This document shows positions 3,892-23,307 of a stretch of DNA of 23,307 bases, piece after piece. The notes under the pieces were generated by a model, which saw only the letters and a program-made list of their open reading frames with translations, did not search any database and was not told the origin of the DNA. Numbering within the stretch: position 1 is the stretch's first letter; the number at the start of each line of letters is the position of its first letter. The DNA comes from a virus: positions 1 to 23,307 of the IMG/VR virus record IMGVR_UViG_3300025646_005991. One strand, 5' to 3'. The position numbers and the translations under genes are program-made.

Positions 3892-4619
3892 TTGTTGTCT
3901 CCTTGAAGTTGTTGTTCAATCAAATCCCATTCGTCAGGCTGGCTGCTTGGTGAGGCTCGGCTTGGTTCCTGGTGTTGTTCAATCAAGTCTGCGACTAGAA
4001 ACCGTTCAGCGTCCTTGGTGTAGCTGTCGCCACACTCTGCGAGGTAGTGCTTGGTTGCGATTTGAATTTCAGCAACGCTGAACTTTGCCAGCAGCTTCTT
4101 GAAGTTCTCAAAGGCTTTGGCTTTGCGTCCTGGCTTTCTGGTTGCCTTTGCTTTCCAATCGTCCCACCAGCCTTCAAAGTGCGTAATATATTCAGTGTTT
4201 CTTTTGTTATTTGTTTCTTTTGTTAATTCTTTATTTTGTAGCTGGCGATTTTCCTGACTAGGTTTTCCCTGACTAGGTTTTCCCTGACTAGGAAAATCCA
4301 CGTTAGGTTTTTCTAGGTTAGGCATTTCGTCACGAACACCTGAGAGCAGATAGACATAATCCCCAAGCTTGCCATCCGGCTTGCGAACTCTCGGACCACG
4401 CTTGATGTAGCCAGACTTCAGCAGTTCATCCATTGCTCGCTTGGTTGAGTCATAGCCATCTGTCGCATGATTGGCTAACTCACTGATTCGGATGTTCCAG
4501 TTCTTCGGCAGACTAAGCAGGTAAATCAGCAATCCTTTGGCTTTCCAGCTAAGTTCTGCGTCCTGAGCGGCTGCGTTACCGATAACGGTGTAAGGTCCGT
4601 CAATGCGTTTGCCTATCAT
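3861..4619 (-). CDS. Replication initiator, lambda O-like, winged-helix N-terminus
   Basis: A 252-residue protein. Residues 1-95 form a helix-turn-helix domain of the phage replication type (LSWKAKGLLIYLLSLPKNW, ISELANHATDGYDSTKRAMD, ELLKSGYIKRGPRVRKPDGK). A low-complexity linker follows at about 105-140, containing a repeated PSQGK, and then a C-terminal domain (about 145-225; EGWWDDWKAKATRKPG, KAFENFKKLL) common to phage initiators. In lambda, O binds iterons within its own gene and recruits P and DnaB. The same layout is seen here, because the linker is encoded by tandem 15-bp DNA repeats next to an AT-rich stretch. The start ATG has GAGG upstream, just after the stop of bet. Confidence 0.78.
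   Translation of the reverse strand: MIGKRIDGPYTVIGNAAAQDAELSWKAKGLLIYLLSLPKNWNIRISELANHATDGYDSTKRAMDELLKSGYIKRGPRVRKPDGKLGDYVYLLSGVRDEMPNLEKPNVDFPSQGKPSQGKPSQENRQLQNKELTKETNNKRNTEYITHFEGWWDDWKAKATRKPGRKAKAFENFKKLLAKFSVAEIQIATKHYLAECGDSYTKDAERFLVADLIEQHQEPSRASPSSQPDEWDLIEQQLQGDNKCSPSSYYAN
4184..4320. other. Candidate replication origin: three 15-bp iterons plus AT-rich tract
   Basis: CCTGACTAGG occurs three times at exact 15-bp spacing (4253, 4268, 4283), each with a CCTnnnnAGG dyad. Degenerate TAGGTT copies follow to about 4320. Bases 4184-4240 are almost entirely A and T on one side. Iterons inside the initiator gene, with an AT-rich segment on their 3' side in gene orientation, reproduce the lambda ori layout. 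Origin function is inferred. Confidence 0.55.
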
Positions 4620-4628
4620 GCTTACCTC

Positions 4629-5372
4629 TTAAGCGGCTTCAGTTGCGGTTGCCATCGTCTGAGCAATATCCTGCTCTACTTGCTTCTGTATCAACTTCAA
4701 TCGGTCTATCTCGCCTTTTTTCAAGTCACCTCGTTTGGCGTAGGCATTGGCTAGACTGTTTGCCTCTTCGAGTGCCTCTTGAGTCTGGCAGGATTCAAAT
4801 TGCTCTTTCAGCAGAAAGAAGGTTTGTGAGCCTTCAGGATTGATGACTTTTGGCGCTGGTGGTTCTTCTTCCTGTGCGTCCGGTTCTGGCGTAATTCCCG
4901 ATAGACCAAAGGCTAGTCGAATGGCCTGTTTCATTGCAGCATGGCGAAGCATCCGGCTGGGGTATTGTTTCCAAGGTTGGCTTCCAGTGTTGCACTCGCT
5001 CAAGAACTCAGTCACCACAGTTGGTCGCTGACGGTCTTTCCGGTAAATCGTTGCGGTGACGCTCACCACTTGGCCTTTTTCGTCTGTTGCATGATTGAAT
5101 TCGATTCCGTCAAACTGCGGATGCTGATTCATGATCTTGTTCCAACCATCGACACTCATCACAACGCTGATGCCACCGGATTTTGCCGGAAAGGCGTAAA
5201 TCTCTCTCGTCAATGGATTCAGGTTGTGCTGTTTGGCAACTGCCAGAAAAGCCATCAAATGCTCTGGCTTTGTGCCTGTTGGCAAAACCGTCTTGGACAA
5301 GACTTCTTGCAGCTCTTCCGGTTTTACCTGGCACTGTTGTGCCACTTGCACGATTAGGTTTTTTTCGGTCAT
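4629..5372 (-). CDS. bet: Bet/RecT-type single-strand annealing protein
   Basis: A 247-residue protein of the phage Bet family, which anneals complementary single strands during phage recombination. Recognisable segments are HLMAFLAVAKQHNLNPLTRE, IYAFPAKSGGISVVMSVDGW, QHPQFDGIEF, RMLRHAAMKQAIRLAFGLSG, and a Glu/Pro-rich linker leading to a helical tail. The ATG at 5372 (MTEKNLIV) has a strong AAGGA site at proper distance; an in-frame TTG upstream at 5393 is unlikely. It directly follows a PD-(D/E)XK-like protein that could supply the 5'-3' resection usually provided by lambda Exo, since no YqaJ-type exonuclease is seen. Confidence 0.88.
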   Translation of the reverse strand: MTEKNLIVQVAQQCQVKPEELQEVLSKTVLPTGTKPEHLMAFLAVAKQHNLNPLTREIYAFPAKSGGISVVMSVDGWNKIMNQHPQFDGIEFNHATDEKGQVVSVTATIYRKDRQRPTVVTEFLSECNTGSQPWKQYPSRMLRHAAMKQAIRLAFGLSGITPEPDAQEEEPPAPKVINPEGSQTFFLLKEQFESCQTQEALEEANSLANAYAKRGDLKKGEIDRLKLIQKQVEQDIAQTMATATEAA

Positions 5373-5382
5373 TGGTTCCTTA

Positions 5383-5994
5383 TTAGTTTTCAAGAGGTTT
5401 CACTCCATTCACTTGGATTGTGAAGTTGTTGAAAATGGCTCCAAAAAGCTCGCTTGGCTCAATTGCAAAATTAAGCGTTTCGTAACCTTTGTTCTGTGCC
5501 GCAATAAGCTGATCTTCTCTCTGCAACCACTTTTGTTTGTGTTTCTGCCAAACAATTTGAAGTGGCCCTACTGGCAGCATATAAATTAGGCCAAGTCCTT
5601 TGACGTAATAGGCAATGTAATCCGCAAGCAAAGGCTTGCACACCCATCCTGGGCTATTTCTTCGGTTGTTGCTCACATACTCAAGAAGTATGTCTGTGTA
5701 GACTCTGCCGCTTTTGCTTGGGTAGCGTATCTTTTCATCAATCACATAATTCTTGCCACCGTCACAAATTACTTGTCGATCTCCACCAAGCCTTTGAAAG
5801 TCTGAATCCCTCTGAAAATAAACAGAACATTTAAAGTTGGGAAAAAACTTTTTGTAGGCTTCTTCCCAAACAGGTAACTCACTATCCAAGTGTGAGTCGT
5901 TCAGTTGCTTATAAAAATCGTTCACTGGCTCAGTAACTGATACCTGATAATCTAAGAACAGGTCTAATTGATTTGGTTGCCCCACTGGCTCCAA
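5383..5994 (-). CDS. PD-(D/E)XK nuclease-like protein
   Basis: A 203-residue protein. The central part shows DFQRLGGDRQVICDGGKNYV then IDEKIRYPSKSG, followed by TDILLEYVSNNRR and PGWVCKPLLADYIAYYV. The order D, then DEK, then a DIxLEY strand looks like a PD-(D/E)XK nuclease core, and I associate this pattern with an uncharacterised phage family. The nuclease role is an inference from motifs. Its position between a DNA methyltransferase and bet suggests a recombination or modification partner. The first start is a TTG at 5994 lying 31 bp inside the methyltransferase gene; a GTG at 5985 preceded by AAGG and GGAG is an alternative. The stop overlaps the TTG-extended bet frame but not the chosen bet start. 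Confidence 0.6.
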   Translation of the reverse strand: MEPVGQPNQLDLFLDYQVSVTEPVNDFYKQLNDSHLDSELPVWEEAYKKFFPNFKCSVYFQRDSDFQRLGGDRQVICDGGKNYVIDEKIRYPSKSGRVYTDILLEYVSNNRRNSPGWVCKPLLADYIAYYVKGLGLIYMLPVGPLQIVWQKHKQKWLQREDQLIAAQNKGYETLNFAIEPSELFGAIFNNFTIQVNGVKPLEN

Positions 5995-9864: not shown

Positions 9865-11046
9865 TTGAGCCACAAAAACGAAATCGTCCATGACCAACGG
9901 CAAAAAGCCTATGTTGGTCAGTTGTGGATTGATAAGAAAAGATACCGTCGAGTTCTGATTCGTTTTGTGGATGCTGAAGGCTTAGAGCCTGACCAGTTGA
10001 ACTCTCTGCTCGTTGAGCGGTTTCTGCAGCTGAAAGAAAAGCTGAGTCGAGAAGTCGAGAGGCTTACTGATGAACAAGGTTTGTTCTTTTCAGAACTGTT
10101 GGATTTGTTCCTAGCGCATGTTCAAGCGAATCGTGACGAGCGAACGGTTGTTAAGTATCGACAGCAGCTTAGTCGTTACCAAAAGATTGTAGGTGATTAT
10201 CGGATTCGGCTGCACTCCGCACAGTTGACTGACAAGTTCGTTTTGGCTCTTCGTAAGGCTGGACTGAATGACCACAGCTGCAACAGTTATCTCAGAGCAG
10301 TCCGAGCGATTCTTAATTGGTCTTGGGAACAAGGTCAGATTCCGGCAGCCATCAAAGTCAAAAGCGTTCGCTCGTCCAAGCCGCTGCCTGCTATATTTTC
10401 TGCTCAACAACTAGAAGATTTGCGGCAACACCTAGAACAAGGTTGGAACGAAACCAAACGAAGACGGTTCTTGGTTCTGCTTCGGGCTTGGTGGTTTTTG
10501 CGCTATACTGGAATGCGTGGTGGTGAGCTTCTGGCCTTGCGTTGGGACAATGTTTACCCAGACCGAATTGAACTGCGCTCAACGCGAGATTGGAAAGTCA
10601 AAGGTCGAAAAGACGCAATCCTCCCCATTGCTGAAGATTTAAAAGAATTTATTCAGGCGCAGGATATTCAAGGCGAGCGTTATGTGCTGGATGATGGCAG
10701 AGGTAAACCTCTTTATAGTTCGCTAGGTGATTTGACCAAGAGTATGCGAAAGGCTTTGCAGAAGGTAGGAATAGAAAACGCGAAACCGCTGCACTCGTTT
10801 CGTTCTACGGTTGCGACTGAACTATTATCTGGTGAGTCTTCAAATCCGGTTCAGGTGCAAAAGCTTCTGCGTCATCAGTCGATTCAAACAACCATGTCTT
10901 ATTTAAATAGTGACCACTTGCAGCAGGTAGACTTGGTAAATAAGTTAGGAAACTCGCCACAAAACACTGTTTCAAAGAAAAAAACCGAAAGCCGCAAGCC
11001 CAGCATTCGTCTAGCCTACAGCCGAAAAAACTCAGGTGACTGTTAA
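9865..11046 (+). CDS. int: Tyrosine recombinase (phage integrase)
   Basis: A 393-residue protein with an N-terminal arm-type region (1-65), a SAM-like core-binding domain (about 70-165, LFLAHVQANRDERTVVKYRQ) and a catalytic domain. Catalytic residues are Arg218 (TGMRGGELLALRW), a lysine among 244-249, His300 and Arg303 (LHSFRSTVA), His327 (LLRHQSIQTTMSYLN) and nucleophile Tyr336. The set is complete and the spacing normal. A basic tail of about 50 residues follows. It starts at a TTG just after an in-frame stop, with no Shine-Dalgarno sequence, so expression may be low or leaderless. The stop lies 10 bp before a tRNA 3'-end fragment, the typical integrase-att arrangement. It catalyses integration into, and with an excisionase excision from, a host tRNA gene. 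Confidence 0.92.
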   Translation: MSHKNEIVHDQRQKAYVGQLWIDKKRYRRVLIRFVDAEGLEPDQLNSLLVERFLQLKEKLSREVERLTDEQGLFFSELLDLFLAHVQANRDERTVVKYRQQLSRYQKIVGDYRIRLHSAQLTDKFVLALRKAGLNDHSCNSYLRAVRAILNWSWEQGQIPAAIKVKSVRSSKPLPAIFSAQQLEDLRQHLEQGWNETKRRRFLVLLRAWWFLRYTGMRGGELLALRWDNVYPDRIELRSTRDWKVKGRKDAILPIAEDLKEFIQAQDIQGERYVLDDGRGKPLYSSLGDLTKSMRKALQKVGIENAKPLHSFRSTVATELLSGESSNPVQVQKLLRHQSIQTTMSYLNSDHLQQVDLVNKLGNSPQNTVSKKKTESRKPSIRLAYSRKNSGDC

Positions 11047-12335: not shown

Positions 12336-13625
12336 TTAAATGGTTAAAGCTGACTCGACTTCAGCTTGCGTAAAACCTAAACGGAATAGTTTGCAGTTTG
12401 GATCTTCTTGCAGTTCTTGCTGATATTTTATGGTCACACCATCCAAATCCGTTTCGGTTCTGACTCGGTGCGTAGCATCTGTAATCCCTGCATCTTCTGG
12501 CGCTAAGTCTCCTGTTCTGAACCAGTTTAGCCTGTTATCTAGTAACGCTTGGTACTGCTGTTGCCAGCCTGACAGGTTTTGATTTTTAATGTATTCGTAA
12601 TCAAATCTGGTATTTAAATGCTTTGGAATCCCTCGCATACCGATAATCTCCTTTAGTTTAGTGATTTCTAGGGTTTGCAATAAATGATAAGTGTTCGCCC
12701 AACTTGCCCAACCTTCATACGATGCTAGTGTTGAACGAAATCGAATGCTGCTACAAGCAGGCCAGTTCTTTTTGAGCTCACTGATCCTTTGAATCATTTG
12801 TTTTGCTGTTGATTTTCGTAACAGTTTCTTTGTAGGGAAATGGCGATAACCAACAAAATCAACGCCTGTCTCGACAGGCTTTAGCGACCACCTGCTAATT
12901 TCTAGTTTTAATGATCTCTTTAAAAAATCTACAATATTTACACGAACAAATTGCAGCCATTCCTTGCTATCGCCAAATATTAAAAAATCATCAACGTAAC
13001 GGCAATATCCTTTGATTCTATATTTGTGTTTTAAGTATTGGTCTAATTCATTTAAGTATAAATTGCCAAACCATTGGCTTGTGTAATTCCCTATTGGGCA
13101 GCCTTCGGCACTACTGATGATTTCTTTAATTAGCATTAAAGTGCGTTTGCATTTTATCTTTTGCTGAACAACAGAAAATAAAATCTGATGGTCAACACTC
13201 GGATAAAACTTCCGAATATCCATTTGCAAACAGTATTTATATTTTTGCACACAGCTCTGAGCATAGTTGCTGGCTCGGTGAAGTCCTAATTGTTTACGAC
13301 AAGCAAAACTTTGCGCTAATAAAACCCTGTCCCAGATTGGCTCAAGGATCTGGATAATAGCGTGTTGGACGATTCTTTCAGGAGCAAATGGAAGCACATA
13401 AATTATTCTGCGTTTTGGTTTTAGAATCTCTTTTATACGGTATTGGCTGGTCTGGTACTTACCATCTACTAATTGCTTGCGGATTTCCGCCAATCCTACT
13501 TCGCTACGATTGTCAAATTCTTGGACTACTCGCTGCCAAGACTTACCTTTTCTTGCGTTGCGATAGGCAAGATTTAAATTGTCAGCAGACACAATCTGCT
13601 CAAAAAGATTCCCGTGACGTTTCAT
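12336..13625 (-). CDS. DGR reverse transcriptase
   Basis: A 429-residue reverse transcriptase with RT motifs in order: KPKRRIIYVLPFAPERIVQH, LQMDIRKFYPSVDH (catalytic Asp136), GCPIGNYTSQWFGNLYLNEL, and CRYVDDFLIFG (Asp212, Asp213). The IGNxTSQ motif at 178-184 is the form typical of retroelement RTs associated with diversity generation, replacing QGxxxSP of most others. After the thumb-like region (to about 320) a C-terminal extension of roughly 80-100 residues (LLDNRLNWFRTGDLAPEDAG onwards) ends in an acidic segment. It makes error-prone cDNA from the TR transcript, misincorporating at adenines, and the cDNA replaces VR. The TR lies about 100 bp upstream. No avd-like accessory gene is seen beside it. 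Confidence 0.95.
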   Translation of the reverse strand: MKRHGNLFEQIVSADNLNLAYRNARKGKSWQRVVQEFDNRSEVGLAEIRKQLVDGKYQTSQYRIKEILKPKRRIIYVLPFAPERIVQHAIIQILEPIWDRVLLAQSFACRKQLGLHRASNYAQSCVQKYKYCLQMDIRKFYPSVDHQILFSVVQQKIKCKRTLMLIKEIISSAEGCPIGNYTSQWFGNLYLNELDQYLKHKYRIKGYCRYVDDFLIFGDSKEWLQFVRVNIVDFLKRSLKLEISRWSLKPVETGVDFVGYRHFPTKKLLRKSTAKQMIQRISELKKNWPACSSIRFRSTLASYEGWASWANTYHLLQTLEITKLKEIIGMRGIPKHLNTRFDYEYIKNQNLSGWQQQYQALLDNRLNWFRTGDLAPEDAGITDATHRVRTETDLDGVTIKYQQELQEDPNCKLFRLGFTQAEVESALTI

Positions 13626-13728
13626 TTTCTAGAGAGATGTCCTTCGCTCTCACTACCAAACACCTCTCCCACCGTTGTGTATTTTGGCAAAAGCCAAGGT
13701 GAGCCAGCCAGCCAGTGGTGTTGTGGCC

Positions 13729-13847
13729 CTCTCACTGTCTCTGCGTGACCCGATGTTGTCGTTGAGATTCAAAGGTGAATTATTCCAATTGACACTGCGT
13801 GACCTGGATTTCGTGCCATTGTTCCAATTGCTGCCCACGATCCCGTG
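13729..13847 (-). repeat. DGR template repeat (TR)
   Basis: The 119-bp segment aligns without gaps to 13903-14021. It differs at 26 positions, 22 of them where TR has A on the minus strand. TR contains 38 adenines there, so 22 of 38 are changed against 4 of 81 other bases. Adenines are concentrated in AAT/AAC-type codons of the corresponding VR frame (for example NWNN), as expected for a template tuned for diversity. It lies between the target gene and the RT gene. Confidence 0.95.
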
Positions 13848-13869
13848 CTGTAACAACGGTACTGCCTCA

Positions 13870-13882
13870 CCCTCCCAGAGGG
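13870..13882. other. Small GC-rich hairpin downstream of VR
   Basis: CCCTC-CCA-GAGGG gives a 5-bp stem with a 3-nt loop about 20 bp past the VR 3' end and 10 bp past the target stop codon. In the Bordetella phage DGR a hairpin just downstream of VR is needed for efficient target recognition. The equivalence here is inferred from position. Confidence 0.4.
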
Positions 13883-13892
13883 ACTTTTAAAA

Positions 13893-15071
13893 TTAGTACA
13901 GACTCCCACTAACTCCGCGCGACCCGACGTTGCCGTCGAGAATCAAAGGTGAATAATACCAACCGACACCGCGCGACCCGCACTTCGCGCCATCGTTAAA
14001 ATCGCCGCCCACGAGCCCGCGATTTGGAACTGAGTATCCTTGACCCCGACCGATAGAATTAGCTCCATCGTATGTCGTTCCGTCGGAGGCGGTGTCTTGA
14101 ACTGCCCAACTAGCTGCACCACCGTCAGATCCGGTTTCATTGGCCCATTGCCACAATGCGCCTGCACAGTCTTCACACCCGACATTTGAGATCATTCTGC
14201 GACTAGCTGTGTCACTGTGGCCTCCAGTCGTTCCAGGGTCTGCTGATCCACTGATATTGGTTTCTTCATTGCTGCCAATAGCTAGAGCCATAAACTCGGC
14301 TTGTGTGGGGAGTCTTTTGTCGATTTCCGCAAATCTCTCTACAAAATTATACCAGTGATAATCGGGGTTGCTTGCCCCATCAACGATGGTTCCACCGTAA
14401 CTGGATTCCAGCGTTGTGGTATTACTGGCTAAGTAAATATCCGCCCAAAGTTTATTACCCACATAAACCATTCCTTCTGGACTTGAAGTTGGACGATGTT
14501 GCGCTTGTGTCCAGACACTTCGAGGCAGAATATCCCCATCGAGGTAACCTGTTAGGGAGTGCCCACTAATTGTCCCAACATCAACACACAGACAGTGGAA
14601 TCCGCCAATCTTGCGAGAGTTTGTGGCACTGGCTGTCACACCTCCAACCGTTCCATCAGGATAGGTAGAATTGGAGCTTAAGCAGAAATTTGGAGTGGTT
14701 CCCGAACTAGGTTCTACCGCATAAATATAGACATCCTCTCCATTGCGGTTTGCTGCTGTTGCTTTGGAGGTTTCATTACTCGCCCAAGAACCTGTTGTGT
14801 CTGCGTCCAGTGTGGTAGCAGTCGAAAGTGTGTAAACAGTGGCGTTGATTTGTAGTTGCACAGCCGGAATATTTACTGTCCGCCTTTCTGAAGCTGTAGC
14901 AGAACCAGCATAAAATCCAGCACTGACATCATTTCCACCTGTGATTTGCTGCTCGGCTAAATACCAGTTGGGGATTGTAGGCGGAACGGCCTGAACCGAA
15001 CCCCCAAAGCTGATTAGACCACCGGATTCAGTGGCTAAAGTCACACTGTTTAGTTGAATTTCACCTGCCAT
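13893..15071 (-). CDS. DGR target protein with FGE/C-type-lectin-fold C-terminus
   Basis: A 392-residue protein. Residues 1-40 resemble the N-terminal attachment parts of the neighbouring fibre proteins. Residues about 170-392 show the FGE-sulfatase-like form of the C-type lectin fold used by DGR targets: GFHCLCVDVG, KRLPTQAEFMALAIG, CAGALWQWANE, then the variable C-terminus GLVGGDFNDGAKCGSRGVGW with SPLILDGNVGSR. The last 37 or so residues are encoded by VR. Adenine-driven changes relative to the template include N to D, G, Y or I, S to C or G and R to G. GGTGAG lies at good spacing before the ATG. Position after fibre genes suggests a receptor-binding tip or adhesin whose binding face is diversified. 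Confidence 0.93.
   Translation of the reverse strand: MAGEIQLNSVTLATESGGLISFGGSVQAVPPTIPNWYLAEQQITGGNDVSAGFYAGSATASERRTVNIPAVQLQINATVYTLSTATTLDADTTGSWASNETSKATAANRNGEDVYIYAVEPSSGTTPNFCLSSNSTYPDGTVGGVTASATNSRKIGGFHCLCVDVGTISGHSLTGYLDGDILPRSVWTQAQHRPTSSPEGMVYVGNKLWADIYLASNTTTLESSYGGTIVDGASNPDYHWYNFVERFAEIDKRLPTQAEFMALAIGSNEETNISGSADPGTTGGHSDTASRRMISNVGCEDCAGALWQWANETGSDGGAASWAVQDTASDGTTYDGANSIGRGQGYSVPNRGLVGGDFNDGAKCGSRGVGWYYSPLILDGNVGSRGVSGSLY
13903..14021 (-). repeat. DGR variable repeat (VR)
   Basis: This is the 3' end of the target gene, homologous to TR (13729-13847). Substitutions fall at template adenines (22 of 26 mismatches), to G, T or C on the minus strand. Four non-adenine differences (VR 13911, 13981, 13998, 13999) break the rule. 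It ends 8 bp before the stop codon; TR/VR identity there probably includes the homing-initiation segment. Confidence 0.95.
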
Positions 15072-17455: not shown

Positions 17456-18489
17456 TGCAGGCTCACATCCAGAGAGAGTCCTAGTTGAGAAGCAGTGTAG
17501 CTGAAAAACTGCGCAAGTGTTGTCCCTCTGGTCGATACTCCAGAAATGCTTAGGACTCCGCCAACCGTTGCAGCATTGAGCTTGATGGTTGACGTTGTTG
17601 GAGCAATTCCAGAATTGCCGCTCGCATTCCAATACTCTGTTGAGCCGGAATCTGTCGAATAGATCAGGACTCCGTCCTCTCTAATTTCAATCGGGTCACT
17701 GCTGCTGGCGAGTTCCAGATTTGGATTTGCCACTTCATCATCTCGCTTCTTGATTACTGGAGTTTGTTCGTTCACGATTCCCCAAGAAAACGGAAGCCTC
17801 AAAGGAATTCCAACTCGATGCGTGTCTCCGTCACTGACGAAACTTCCGGCAGTACCCACACCTGCCGTTACTGGGATAAAATCCTTATCTTGTAAAGTGA
17901 AGGTGTTGGCAGAGGTTCGGACAATGTAATAATAGTTGTCATCGCTCACGCCTGAGTATTCTAGGTTTCCACCGTAGGTATCCATCTTTTCAAAAATCAC
18001 CTGTTGCCCTGTCGCAAACCCATGAGAATTTGCGGTAATGCTCACAGGTTGCCCTCCGCCTGGCACACTCACACCTTCGACAAACGCAAAGGATTCGGTA
18101 AGTGTGAATGGCCTTGCACCCAGTGAATATTCGGTGTCAGTCAAGGCAAAGGTCAGTTCTGTTTCGCTGATCGCCTGCAAAAAGATTTGACCAGAAAACA
18201 AGTCTCTTCCAGCCTCACCCCATTTGATGGTGCATGGGTACAACTGGGGAAGTCGCACAAGGTCTTCATAGCGTTGCAAAGCAAAAGGTGCTTCCGCATT
18301 CAGGAAATCGTTGTGCAAGGTTAGGTTGCCGAACTTCACCCCAATCTTTCCTGAATCTTCTACCTGTCCAAGTTCGAGTGAAGGCATTCTCTTGATGAAC
18401 GGTTGCCAAAAATACTCGCCAGCCAGGCCAAGCTTTGAACCTCGGTAAACCGTTTCTGCTACAGTGATTTCAGCGAGTAACTGGCTCAT
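17452..18489 (-). CDS. Tail protein following the tape measure (tip/baseplate)
   Basis: A 345-residue protein starting at the last base of the tape measure stop region. The N-terminal part (residues 1-135) is beta-rich (GKIGVKFGNLTLHNDFL). Residues about 148-205 contain a small beta module common in phage tail proteins (ITANSHGFATGQQVIFEKMD, then YYYIVRTSANTFTLQDKD). The C-terminus is Ser/Thr-rich. The role is likely a distal-tail or tip structure by gene order; the exact homologue is not recognised. Confidence 0.65.
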   Translation of the reverse strand: MSQLLAEITVAETVYRGSKLGLAGEYFWQPFIKRMPSLELGQVEDSGKIGVKFGNLTLHNDFLNAEAPFALQRYEDLVRLPQLYPCTIKWGEAGRDLFSGQIFLQAISETELTFALTDTEYSLGARPFTLTESFAFVEGVSVPGGGQPVSITANSHGFATGQQVIFEKMDTYGGNLEYSGVSDDNYYYIVRTSANTFTLQDKDFIPVTAGVGTAGSFVSDGDTHRVGIPLRLPFSWGIVNEQTPVIKKRDDEVANPNLELASSSDPIEIREDGVLIYSTDSGSTEYWNASGNSGIAPTTSTIKLNAATVGGVLSISGVSTRGTTLAQFFSYTASQLGLSLDVSLQ

Positions 18490-21400
18490 CAGATATACCT
18501 TGCTGGGACATACTGCTCGCCTTGCCTTCTGGTTCTTTCTCTCAGCTCGCTTCTGAATTCTTCAATGCCTGCTTTTGTCTGGCCTGCCATATCGGTGTAG
18601 ACGTTGACTTCTGTCTCGTTTTCTCGCACTGCCACAATCAATTCAGCCAGTAAGCGTTTGACCTCTGGGTCTGAGGTTGCGTTGATTGCGGCTGAATCGC
18701 CAGAGTTGAGACGGTTCAGATTGCTGACTCCATAACGTCTAACGGTTTCTGGGGATAGGATATATTCGCCAGGACTCAACATGGCTGGAATGGTGTCCAT
18801 TGGGTCTGGGACTAATCCGCCTTGCCGGAAGCCGTATTTTGTAGGATTGAAAATATCTTTATAAGAATTATAAACTTGGTTTGCATCGCTCAGTGTTTCG
18901 TAATAATAAGCGTAAGAATTGCCTGAATATCTAAAATAAATGCCGTAAGGATAGACTTCTTCGCCTGACTGTAAATAAGTAGCAGTTAGGTCAGCAAAAG
19001 AAGTATTAGACCCCGATTTAACAGAAGCACCATAATCTCCAGCACTGTATTGGTTCCCAGAAAATGTAGTGGCATCGCTAACAAAACTACCTGTTCCCCC
19101 AATATTTATGATTCCAAGCTTTGCGTAGGTTTCACTTAGTCCAGAAACAAAACTGCTGATTGCATTATTTACGTTTGTGGTCAGCGTGGAAAAAGCTGAT
19201 GTCACAGAAGAAGTATTCAGGCTAACGGTTGGGGTAATGGTTCCCAAGTTTGGCGTTCCGGCTGTTGCAATAGGTGTGATTGTTCCTAAGTTCAGCCCAG
19301 AAGTGTCCACCGTGAACATACTGGTGGACATTACCAGCGAGAGGTCAAGATTGGTTGAGTCCAAGCTGAAGTTGTCGCTTGTCAGTTCAACCGTTTCACT
19401 GATTCCAGAAGTATCAATAACAATATCATCACCACTAAGCGTTAAAGGAATCTGAGCAACTTCTGTGATGTATTCAATTTGCTGTTGAGCAAAAGCTAGT
19501 GCTGCGGAGTCAATGCTAGCAATCAGAGTGTTGACGACTTCCGCAAAGTCTTCATCCAAGACGGAGAGGATTTCTTCCAAATCACTGGATAAATTACTGC
19601 TTGCTTGAATCGGAGCATTGACAGACGTTTGCAGTCCAAGTCCCGTTAAATCACCAAGCACACCTTCGAAAATGGTTGTAAAGGCTGTTGAGGACTTAAA
19701 AACGTTCCTGGCTGCGGTGAGGTATTCATTGACAAAGGCTTGCAGAAGTTTAATGTCTTCCTCAGTTGCATCAGCATCAAAGGCATTTTCTAGTAGGCTT
19801 TCGTAAGTGCTTTGAGCTTGAGCGAATTGTTCTTGTGGTCCCAGTGGAGAAAAGTCCGAAAAGAGCAATTCTTGGACTTGGTCAAAGAGTCCTTGAACCA
19901 ACTCATCAATCTTTTCAATCGTGCGCTCAAAATCTGACAGTAAGGCTTGCAAACCTGTTTCGACGTTTTGCAGTGCCAGAAGTTGCTGTTCTCTTTCGAG
20001 TTGGTCTAATTGCTTGTTTTTCAGTTCAATCGTTTTCGCTTCTGCTTTGTTTGCGGCATTCAACAACTGAGTCCTTAAATCCTCATCATCTATTAAGTCC
20101 GCCAAGGCTTTTTGCTGTTCAATCGTCGCAATTGACTCTTGGTATCGAAACTCAATCTGCTCTTCAATGCTCATGTTCTGAAAATCAATGGCGTCAATCT
20201 GGTCTTGTGCGGATTGGGTCAAATCATCCAAGGCGTTCAGTGGTTCCTGAATATAGGCTTCAATTAATCCTTGAATAACAATCTTTGATTTCTCTTCTGT
20301 CTCAGCAATCTTCTGATTTACTTTTTTTATTTCCTTACCTATTTGATTCATAAGATAAGGAGCAGATGAAGCTGCTGCTAGTGTTTTGAAATTGATTTCT
20401 TGCACAGCTTCCAGGCTAGCAACTGCCTCTTCAGTGTTTTGCGTTATTCGGTTGATAACTTCGGTCAGTCCCAAATCTGGAATCAAGTCAGCTAGTTCGT
20501 CAATCTTTGGTTGCAGTTGATCCCTCGTTGACGGAGCGTCTGCAATGTTTTCAAAAATCAAATCGGCTTGAGCAAATGCTTTTTGCTGATTGGTTGGTCC
20601 TCCAGGTCTTGAGCTGCTGAAAGCAGCTTCTAAGTCTCTGGCAAGTCCACCTCCAAAAATATAACCATTTGGGCCAAGTCCAACCGTGTCAAGCAAGCCT
20701 TCTGCGGCATTTGTTGCGTTCTCAATCAATGCTCCAATCAAGCGATTAATGGCACTGATTAAATCGCCAAGTAAATCAATGAATGGGTCAAGCACCTCAA
20801 ACAGAAGTTCAAAGCTTGAGTCGATGGCTTTGGCAACCTTTTCGTTGCTCAAGATTAGTTTGGCAGCGGCTTCTTCTGGTGATTTCGATTGAGCAATGTT
20901 GATCGCTCGACTAGCGTTTGGTCCTGCGCCAGAAATGCCTGAAACAATTGCTCCTGCGGTTCTTTCTGCTTCTTCGTTCAGTTGTCCCTGAAGTAAAAGC
21001 TGAGTTCTTAGTTGTTCGGTTGCTTCCTCAAGGTAAGTTAGTTCTCTGGCTTTTGGGAAAAGGCTTGCTTCGTAGAGGTCATTCTTTTGCTGAGTCAAGG
21101 CGTTGATTTCAGTGACTCGCTCAAATTCTTCTTCTAAGCCTTGCGTGAATCGGTTCTGTTGGTCTTCGGTCAGTTGTCCAAGTTCTGTTCTGATTCGGAA
21201 TTGTTCTTCCAGTTGTCTGGTGAACTCTTCTTGTTGCGCTTCTGAAATCTGGCCTGTGAAATCGGTGTATTCAATCTCTTTGACTTCTTCGATTTTTTCT
21301 TTCAGCTTCTCAACTGATGAGGCGGCATTTGCAGCTTCAAGGTTTACATTGCCCAGTTGCTCTTCAGTCTTGATTAGTGTCCCAGAATCAATCTGTTGTG

Positions 21401-22781
21401 TGTATTGATTGAACTCTGCATTGACGGCAGCATAAGCTTCTTCTGCTTGTCGTAGTAAGTCAGCCTGTCTTCGGTAGCTGTCTGCTAAAAATTCTGCCGA
21501 ATCTCTCTCAAATTTTAATTCTGATTCTCTTGCACTTGTTGAGGTTGCAATTGGCGCAACGTCTCCGTCCATCCCAATTGAGTCTGCGGCACTGTTGTAA
21601 TAGCCAATAACCTTGTTGATTTGATTGATGAAAAAGTTATCAACCGATTCAAAGAAGCTCAGAAGGTTGGCAACCATGCCGATGAAAAAATCTCGAATCT
21701 GATAAGCCAATCGTTCCAACCGAATTGCCAAATTCTGCGTTTGATAATCAACGGCAACCGTCAGCAAAGAAAGCGAATATTGAATGTAGTTGATGGTTTT
21801 GGCGATTGGATTTGACGTTCCTCCAGAAAAAACAGAAAAGGCATCTCGTAGAGGTTTGGTCAAGGCAAGTGCTAGCTGCTTGAGCTTGTCAAAGTAAACT
21901 CCCAGCATTACCACTACTTCTGAAAACTGACGAACAATGTTGTCTGCCTTGTCGAATTCTGTGGCTAGTTTGGTGAGTGCGTTTGCCGTCTTGTTGAAGA
22001 TTCCGGTTGATTGCTCAAATTTCCCAATGAGCATCGTTAGGCTGTTGTTGATTCTTTGAGTGGCTGTTCCAATCGTGTCCTGAGCTGCGCCAAACTGTTC
22101 GTTAATGGCTTCAGCAGACCCAAGGATTGCGTCTTTAAATAACTGATTCGTCAGGTTGCCATCGGTCACAAACTTCTTCAGACTTCCAGCCGTGAGTCCA
22201 AGTTGCTTTTCAACTTCTTTGAGCAGATTGGGCATTCCGTCAATCAACGAATTGAACTCTTCCGCCTGAACCTTTGGCGAGTTCAAGGCTTGCGCGAGTT
22301 GCAGCAATGCCCCAGAAGCCTCAGTGCTACTCGTTCCGGCTGCGGCTAAAGACTTGGCAACAATTTCAGTAATGCGGATGGTTTCGGCTTGGGATGAGCC
22401 TAACTGGTCAGCAGCAACACGAAGGCGAGCGTAAAGCTTGGTGGTGTCCTCAATTGCGGTTCCGGTGGTCTGTGAAACTCGGTACAACTCTTTCTGAACC
22501 GCTGCGGCTTCTGCGGCTGAGTTGGTTGCAATGCGGATTTGATTGGCGAAATTTGTGAAAGTGTCAGCGGCTTGTGCGATTTGCTGAACACTAATCGCAG
22601 CAACCAAAGCAGAAGCAGCATTCCTGGCAGACTTAAAAGCGGACTCCATTTTTCTGGTTGAGTTCGCCACTCGGTCCATTGCACTCGAAGACTTTTTGAG
22701 TTCGCCTTCAAGCTTGCCCAAACGGTTAATGGCGTCACGAATCTCTAATTCAATTTCAATGGTAGAGGCTGCGTTTGCCAT
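18489..22781 (-). CDS. Tail tape measure protein
   Basis: At 1430 residues this is the largest gene. The N-terminal 230 residues match the tape-measure domain (AAISVQQIAQAADTFTNFAN, GTSSTEASGALLQLAQALNS, VQAEEFNSLIDGMPNLL). Hydrophobic stretches at about 340-390 and 640-700 and long helices around 440-580 and 850-1000 follow. The C-terminus has GGLVPDPMDTIPAMLSPGEY then LSPETVRRYGVSNLNRLN, a conserved tape-measure ending. The protein sets tail length and may be ejected into the host. At the usual rule of about 1.5 angstrom per residue, the tail would be a little over 200 nm. Its ATG overlaps the TAA of the frameshifted chaperone (TAATG), the classical neighbour. Confidence 0.95.
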   Translation of the reverse strand: MANAASTIEIELEIRDAINRLGKLEGELKKSSSAMDRVANSTRKMESAFKSARNAASALVAAISVQQIAQAADTFTNFANQIRIATNSAAEAAAVQKELYRVSQTTGTAIEDTTKLYARLRVAADQLGSSQAETIRITEIVAKSLAAAGTSSTEASGALLQLAQALNSPKVQAEEFNSLIDGMPNLLKEVEKQLGLTAGSLKKFVTDGNLTNQLFKDAILGSAEAINEQFGAAQDTIGTATQRINNSLTMLIGKFEQSTGIFNKTANALTKLATEFDKADNIVRQFSEVVVMLGVYFDKLKQLALALTKPLRDAFSVFSGGTSNPIAKTINYIQYSLSLLTVAVDYQTQNLAIRLERLAYQIRDFFIGMVANLLSFFESVDNFFINQINKVIGYYNSAADSIGMDGDVAPIATSTSARESELKFERDSAEFLADSYRRQADLLRQAEEAYAAVNAEFNQYTQQIDSGTLIKTEEQLGNVNLEAANAASSVEKLKEKIEEVKEIEYTDFTGQISEAQQEEFTRQLEEQFRIRTELGQLTEDQQNRFTQGLEEEFERVTEINALTQQKNDLYEASLFPKARELTYLEEATEQLRTQLLLQGQLNEEAERTAGAIVSGISGAGPNASRAINIAQSKSPEEAAAKLILSNEKVAKAIDSSFELLFEVLDPFIDLLGDLISAINRLIGALIENATNAAEGLLDTVGLGPNGYIFGGGLARDLEAAFSSSRPGGPTNQQKAFAQADLIFENIADAPSTRDQLQPKIDELADLIPDLGLTEVINRITQNTEEAVASLEAVQEINFKTLAAASSAPYLMNQIGKEIKKVNQKIAETEEKSKIVIQGLIEAYIQEPLNALDDLTQSAQDQIDAIDFQNMSIEEQIEFRYQESIATIEQQKALADLIDDEDLRTQLLNAANKAEAKTIELKNKQLDQLEREQQLLALQNVETGLQALLSDFERTIEKIDELVQGLFDQVQELLFSDFSPLGPQEQFAQAQSTYESLLENAFDADATEEDIKLLQAFVNEYLTAARNVFKSSTAFTTIFEGVLGDLTGLGLQTSVNAPIQASSNLSSDLEEILSVLDEDFAEVVNTLIASIDSAALAFAQQQIEYITEVAQIPLTLSGDDIVIDTSGISETVELTSDNFSLDSTNLDLSLVMSTSMFTVDTSGLNLGTITPIATAGTPNLGTITPTVSLNTSSVTSAFSTLTTNVNNAISSFVSGLSETYAKLGIINIGGTGSFVSDATTFSGNQYSAGDYGASVKSGSNTSFADLTATYLQSGEEVYPYGIYFRYSGNSYAYYYETLSDANQVYNSYKDIFNPTKYGFRQGGLVPDPMDTIPAMLSPGEYILSPETVRRYGVSNLNRLNSGDSAAINATSDPEVKRLLAELIVAVRENETEVNVYTDMAGQTKAGIEEFRSELRERTRRQGEQYVPARYI

Positions 22782-23236
22782 TATCGTTTTCTTCTAGGCT
22801 TTGGGGTAGGTCGAGCGGTTGCGGACTTTTTCTTCTGCAAGTCTCGTTTGCGCTCGTTCTCTTGCTTTCTGTGGCTAGTGACTTCTCTGTCAATCGTCAC
22901 TAGTGCCGAATAGACTTCTGGTGTGTTGGTCTGGTTTCTTCTTAAGTAGCAATCAATTGCTTCTTCGCGCAGAAAACCAATATCAAAACCCAAGTCTCGT
23001 CCGGTTGTGTCCAAGTCTCTGAACGCTTGAACCGCTGCCAAGTTACGCTCGGTCAGCGTCAAGTTGTTTGGACAAACTGAACAAGGCGGCTCTTCGTCAT
23101 CTTGCCAGACATTCTCAGCAGATTTGCAACACCAAACCGCTTGGTATCTGTCGCCTTCCTGAATGCCATGCTCGGCTGAATCACCTAGATAAGCCGCTCG
23201 TTCTAAGACTAAATCTAGGTAACTTTTTAATTTCCC
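22781..23236 (-). CDS. Tail assembly chaperone T extension, expressed by -1 frameshift
   Basis: The frame is open from just after a TGA at about 23243 to a TAA overlapping the tape measure start, with no ATG or GTG and only a TTG at 23062. It reads GKLKSYLDLVLERAAYLGDS from the slip site, then a cysteine cluster (WCC and PPCSVC) and a segment typical of tail chaperones (LTERNLAAVQAFRDLDTTGR, DIGFLREEAIDCYL), ending in a very basic tail (ATARPTPKPRRKR). Translation is explained by slippage at GGGAAAT (23230-23236), where the zero-frame stop follows immediately. This makes a G-T fusion as in lambda. An independent product from the TTG is the alternative. Confidence 0.8.
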   Translation of the reverse strand, partial: GKLKSYLDLVLERAAYLGDSAEHGIQEGDRYQAVWCCKSAENVWQDDEEPPCSVCPNNLTLTERNLAAVQAFRDLDTTGRDLGFDIGFLREEAIDCYLRRNQTNTPEVYSALVTIDREVTSHRKQENERKRDLQKKKSATARPTPKPRRKR

Positions 23237-23307
23237 TCTTCGTCATCGACTTTCGCCTGGGCTAAACGCATCAGCTTCAAGCTAACATGCGTTGCCATTT
23301 TATTGAG
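23227..23307 (-). CDS. Tail assembly chaperone G-like protein, C-terminus only
   Basis: The window holds only the last 26 codons. The frame reads in from the right edge without a stop, through MATHVSLKLMRLAQAKVDDE and EGN, to TAA. The in-window ATG at 23298 could start a 23-residue peptide, but a longer protein beginning outside is more likely, since G proteins are usually over 100 residues. The C-terminal acidic DDEEGN precedes the slip site. The call depends on the frameshift and the tape measure downstream. Confidence 0.6.
   Translation of the reverse strand, partial: LNKMATHVSLKLMRLAQAKVDDEEGN
23230..23236 (-). promoter_or_regulatory. -1 programmed frameshift site G GGA AAT
   Basis: Zero-frame codons are GAG GGA AAT TAA. 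The heptamer G GGA AAT fits X XXY YYZ, and slipping back gives GGG AAA TTA, entering the open T frame. Lambda uses GGGAAAG at the same gene position. Confidence 0.8.

Follow-up and report, generated by a model that had tools for sequence, protein, structure and literature searches.

The window analysed in this study comprises 23,307 bases and is the whole of IMG/VR record IMGVR_UViG_3300025646_005991, the end of which falls inside a gene, here called G, that is read on the minus strand together with an overlapping frame (T) and a long tape measure gene. The elements of this locus are as follows, in window coordinates:

23227 to 23307, minus strand: 3' end of G (the final 26 of its 118 codons and the TAA), zero frame, encoding a putative tail assembly chaperone whose AlphaFold model matches the HK97 chaperone
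23243 to 23245, minus strand: TGA that shuts the -1 frame upstream and restricts the point of entry to the heptamer region
23230 to 23236, minus strand: slippery heptamer G_GGA_AAT, invariant and in the same phase in all relatives
23227 to 23229, minus strand: zero-frame stop TAA, abutting the heptamer and lying within the spacer to the hairpin
23213 to 23224, minus strand: 5' arm of a conserved 12-bp stem, a probable frameshift stimulator
23179 to 23190, minus strand: 3' arm of the same stem
22781 to 23230, minus strand: -1-frame extension T, comprising 149 aa beyond the slip (LKSYLDLV...PRRKR) and a TAA, with codon-position variation that tracks the T frame
22781 to 23062, minus strand: shortened 93-aa ORF opened by TTG, an unlikely start, as expected from a gene caller
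18489 to 22781, minus strand: tape measure protein, 1430 aa (PF20155 TMP_3, E 5.8e-55; PHROG tape measure, E 1e-64)

The contig breaks off before the 5' part of G, whereas the complete gene is present at 4480-4836 of relative L003, which is almost identical to the window. The genes of L003 run in the order protease-capsid fusion, small genes, head closure (PHROG 82, E 5e-18), tail terminator (PHROG 4204, E 7e-23), a 417-aa protein, G, T and tape measure. The 417-aa protein has no family match and is named as the presumed tail tube protein from its position only, with the overlapping G and T frames situated between its gene and that of the tape measure. The tape measure genes themselves are of several types (18489-22781 in the window; also L005, L034 and L035), having in common their first ~20 residues, MANAASTIEIELEIRDAINRL, and the same G and T ahead of them. 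Elsewhere, the window contains a diversity-generating retroelement on the minus strand (12336-14019), consisting of a reverse transcriptase (12336-13625; PHROG 1423, E 2.5e-110), a template repeat (13729-13845) and a variable repeat (13903-14019) located at the 3' terminus of the gene for a tail protein (13893-15071); of the 25 differences between the repeats, 21 fall at template adenines. It further encodes an integrase on the plus strand (9865-11046; PHROG 1, E 4e-32) and, at 4629-5393 on the minus strand, a Bet-like annealing protein, on account of which this uncultured, tailed phage is probably temperate.

The minus-strand end of G reads GAA GAG GGA AAT TAA, and the zero-frame stop (23229-23227) is indeed the codon directly after G GGA AAT, as a sequence-only reading of this DNA had stated. 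No stop codon interrupts the T frame between the TGA at 23245-23243 and the TAA at 22783-22781. This TAA shares one base with the ATG of the tape measure gene, which bears out the TAATG overlap of that reading. Two relatives, L043 and L034, have a longer and different T C-terminus that overlaps a GTG-started tape measure gene, with no TAATG. Joined at the heptamer, the 118 aa of G and the 149 aa of the T extension would form a GT protein of 267 aa. T had also been described as having neither ATG nor GTG. This is correct for its beginning, since the first conventional start is the TTG at 23062, but later starts include one GTG at 22900, deep inside the frame. A conventional gene caller would consequently report only the TTG-started fragment, as had been anticipated.

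The tentative assignment of G to the tail assembly chaperones draws on its gene position and its predicted structure (AlphaFold pLDDT 81.5). When the model was compared to the PDB with Foldseek, the two best matches were the HK97 tail assembly chaperone 2OB9 (E 0.17) and YqbN 3KLU (E 0.56), with modest structure comparison Z scores of 5.1 and 4.7, respectively, while among the viral models of BFVD it matched named tail assembly chaperones at E 3e-4 to 6e-4. Taken alone, each of these fold matches is weak, but the appearance of the right family at the top together with the gene position makes a persuasive case that the modeled protein is a probable tail assembly chaperone. At the sequence level, G yielded nothing significant against known chaperone families (PHROG 15027 only at E 0.07-0.1) and no match in a PDB profile search; among isolate phages, the only hit was Serratia phage Tlacuache gp13 (E 0.3), which occupies the same gene position and provides a mere hint. 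Neither T nor the presumed tail tube protein has protein-level relatives among isolate phages, a scan of GTDB genomes with T found no relative, and a nucleotide search returned a single match at chance level. The predicted structure of T (pLDDT 50) was uninformative.

A search of viral contigs, for which the TTG-started portion of T served as the query, yielded 44 relatives, all belonging to one close group, and 42 of these span the junction between the frames. GGGAAAT, its phase and the abutting TAA are identical in all 42, each of which also carries a -1 frame stop upstream of the heptamer. Heptamer and TAA are likewise kept in 112 of 112 loci checked, a set of partly overlapping contigs that includes loci added via G and the presumed tail tube protein. 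The conservation proposed earlier as a check on the heptamer is thus evident throughout the group, and a search of the relatives for a degraded heptamer or for a T gene with its own conserved start codon found neither. Searches with G, the tail tube protein and the tape measure N-terminus gave the same group again and no deeper relatives in which heptamer turnover could be followed. Slippery heptamers are also rare in the window, with just 13 in-frame XXXYYYZ motifs (X≠Y, Y = A/T) in the ~6055 codons of its genes, two of them GGGAAAN. Given this rarity, a zero/-1 frame overlap of only ~5 codons at the heptamer and the conservation across relatives, a chance occurrence does not explain the motif. 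In a single contig, a one-base difference of frame would look the same if G and T were one gene split by an indel, whether through an assembly or sequencing error or through decay. However, the same arrangement recurs in 42 separate contigs of diverged sequence, a degree of conservation that already refutes this explanation and leaves it a negligible probability.

Among 31 distinct sequences, the 15-nt block GAAGAGGGAAATTAA shows no variation at all, whereas 13 of the 15 zero-frame third positions are variable in the 45 nt upstream. The variable sites before the heptamer number 7, 7 and 13 of 15 at zero-frame codon positions 1, 2 and 3, respectively; between the heptamer and the TTG, it is the T frame that exhibits such a bias (18 of 55, 11 of 56 and 47 of 56). 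The pattern of codon-position variation therefore changes frame exactly at the heptamer, and T is, judging from this pattern, under purifying selection immediately after it. This switch, along with the closure of the -1 frame at TGA 23245-23243, agrees with the earlier proposal that T is entered by slippage. The junction and heptamer are unaltered even where G is only ~53% identical between subgroups: L035, L037, L039 and L040 encode a G of another type, ~53% identical to that of the window, alongside a T that is >80% identical, a disparity that places an exchange boundary near the junction and the GAAGAGGGAAATTAA block, with the heptamer outlasting the exchange.

It could be argued that T is instead a separate gene, expressed from TTG 23062 or another weak start and coupled to the termination of G, in which case the heptamer would be incidental. 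The TTG does open a 93-aa ORF, and a likeness to a ribosome-binding site might be seen in the purine-rich GAAGAGGGA ahead of the stop. We nevertheless regard this as very improbable, as the 56 codons between the heptamer and the TTG are constrained at the protein level in the T frame, no start is conserved in that stretch, and neither the heptamer nor its phase varies. None of the 42 junction-spanning relatives revealed a conserved T start codon, and the TTG at -150 occurs in only some of them. Since the codon-position variation there follows the T frame despite the lack of a conserved start, the stretch from heptamer to TTG must be translated in that frame. Two further routes into T were considered and rejected: reinitiation at a non-standard start, as the T frame has no start codon at a suitable distance, and transcriptional slippage, as there is no long homopolymer run.

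Gene order, phase, the lack of a T start, selection, conservation and the fold of G all agree with the lambda-like -1 frameshift originally proposed for this locus, and a programmed -1 ribosomal frameshift very probably yields a G/GT pair of tail assembly chaperones. According to this mechanism, the majority of ribosomes would terminate at the TAA abutting GGGAAAT to produce the 118-aa G, whereas in a minority tRNA-Gly and tRNA-Asn on GGA AAU would shift one base back to GGG AAA, producing GT. DDEEGK had been suggested as the peptide spanning the junction, but slippage of two tRNAs predicts ...DDEEGN-LKSYL..., and the K would require slippage of the P-site tRNA prior to decoding at the A site. 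By analogy to lambda, the role of G would be to coat the tape measure protein and that of the T portion of GT to recruit tail-tube subunits. In lambda, whose site operates without stimulators, G and GT are made at a ratio of ~30:1, with G as the binding partner of the tape measure and T as that of the tube protein (PMC5009743).

The similarity to lambda gpG/gpGT (G_GGA_AAG) extends to the gene order, the -1 direction and phase, the GGGAAA core, a G stop soon after the heptamer and a T frame without a start that is followed by an overlapping tape measure gene. The earlier claim that the heptamer itself matches that of lambda holds for the core but not for the last base, which is T here (Asn AAU) and G in lambda (Lys AAG). 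Unlike lambda, the stop abuts the heptamer in this group and a conserved hairpin lies 4-7 nt downstream; no sequence similarity to this G/T pair was detected in lambda. The P2 site likewise has nothing comparable to the hairpin at that position. HK97 gp13/gp14 offers another parallel, as the gp13 structure 2OB9 resembles the G model, a -1 frameshift is annotated, and a candidate heptamer, GGGAAAA, is found near the end of gp13 with moderate downstream structure, although gp13 and G share no significant sequence similarity. In the -1 signals of E. coli dnaX and of the IS3/IS911 type, a slippery heptamer is combined with a downstream stem-loop at a distance of a few nucleotides. The present site shares this combination with them, but the genes are unrelated, here being those of a tail chaperone, and inspection revealed no apparent Shine-Dalgarno-like stimulator ~10 nt upstream.

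The stem-loop, a conserved feature that the sequence-only reading overlooked, was found after the heptamer by folding in all 30 distinct sequences, mostly with 10-13 bp and in a few with 8-9 bp. The spacer between heptamer and stem, which includes the zero-frame TAA, is 5 nt long in the window; among the relatives it ranges from 4 to 7 nt, with 8 nt in L004. A local scan covering -340 to +530 placed the deepest mean free energy at the hairpin (-19.7, compared to a mean of -10.0 and an sd of 3.3). Four of the 12 stem pairs exhibit double-sided changes in at least two sublineages (C-G to U-A, A-U to G-C via a G-U intermediate, and G-C to A-U at two pairs), although these compensatory changes reflect few events, as all of the relatives belong to one close group. 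Stem covariation is 0.180, compared to 0.129 when shuffled and at most 0.058 when slid, and 97% of cells pair. Synonymous variation is lowered in the stem but not in the loop, with a third-position entropy of 0.31 bits in the stem and 0.69 bits elsewhere (none of 91 shifted blocks is as low). When 11 sequences were compared with synonymous recodings of themselves, the actual hairpin was the stronger fold in 95.6 to 100% of comparisons; that of the window, which L003 shares, is the weakest tested, with 44 of 1000 recodings folding equally well. For a second helix, located further inside the hairpin, just 75% of cells pair, and we make no claim for it.

In E. coli tests, mixed purine/pyrimidine AAN A-site codons such as AAU slip worse than AAG or AAA as a general rule, and stimulatory structures begin 5-8 nt downstream (PMC4066793), a distance of about 5-8 nt after the heptamer that the spacer of the hairpin fits. 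Since AAU slips less well and structures at that distance stimulate, the hairpin would offset the weaker heptamer, and it does look like a frameshift stimulator that makes up for the weaker slip codon, probably by keeping the ribosome on the heptamer and thereby fixing the rate. We consider it reasonably likely that the AAU heptamer, the abutting stop and the stem-loop jointly set the G:GT ratio, unlike in lambda. The less likely scenario, though one deserving serious consideration, is that the frameshift is real but the hairpin is no stimulator, being a by-product of coding or serving some other RNA function such as mRNA processing, with the heptamer sufficing as it does in lambda. The lambda site works without stimulators and shows no unusual downstream structure (rank 125 of 218), and in the window itself the hairpin surpasses its recodings by a moderate margin only. 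Conversely, such a scenario leaves unexplained why the hairpin of nearly all relatives begins 4-7 nt past the heptamer, why four pairs show compensatory changes and why synonymous variation drops in the stem while the loop is spared. A literature search found no paper on a stimulator at a tail-chaperone site, although its coverage was incomplete and the absence is not evidence.

The frameshift event itself is of a known kind. What is new is its occurrence in an uncultured phage group that has no cultured relatives in the collections searched, together with a probable RNA stimulator. This adds a well-supported tail-chaperone frameshift for phages that lack any significant match to G or T in the isolate-phage collection, and it sets right gene calls from which the N-terminal part of T would be missing. 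Largely on the basis of lambda, tail-chaperone frameshift sites are usually described as stimulator-free, and the conserved hairpin provides a testable case of a structured stimulator at such a site. If it does function in this manner, RNA structure would tune the ratio of G to GT and hence the assembly of the tail.
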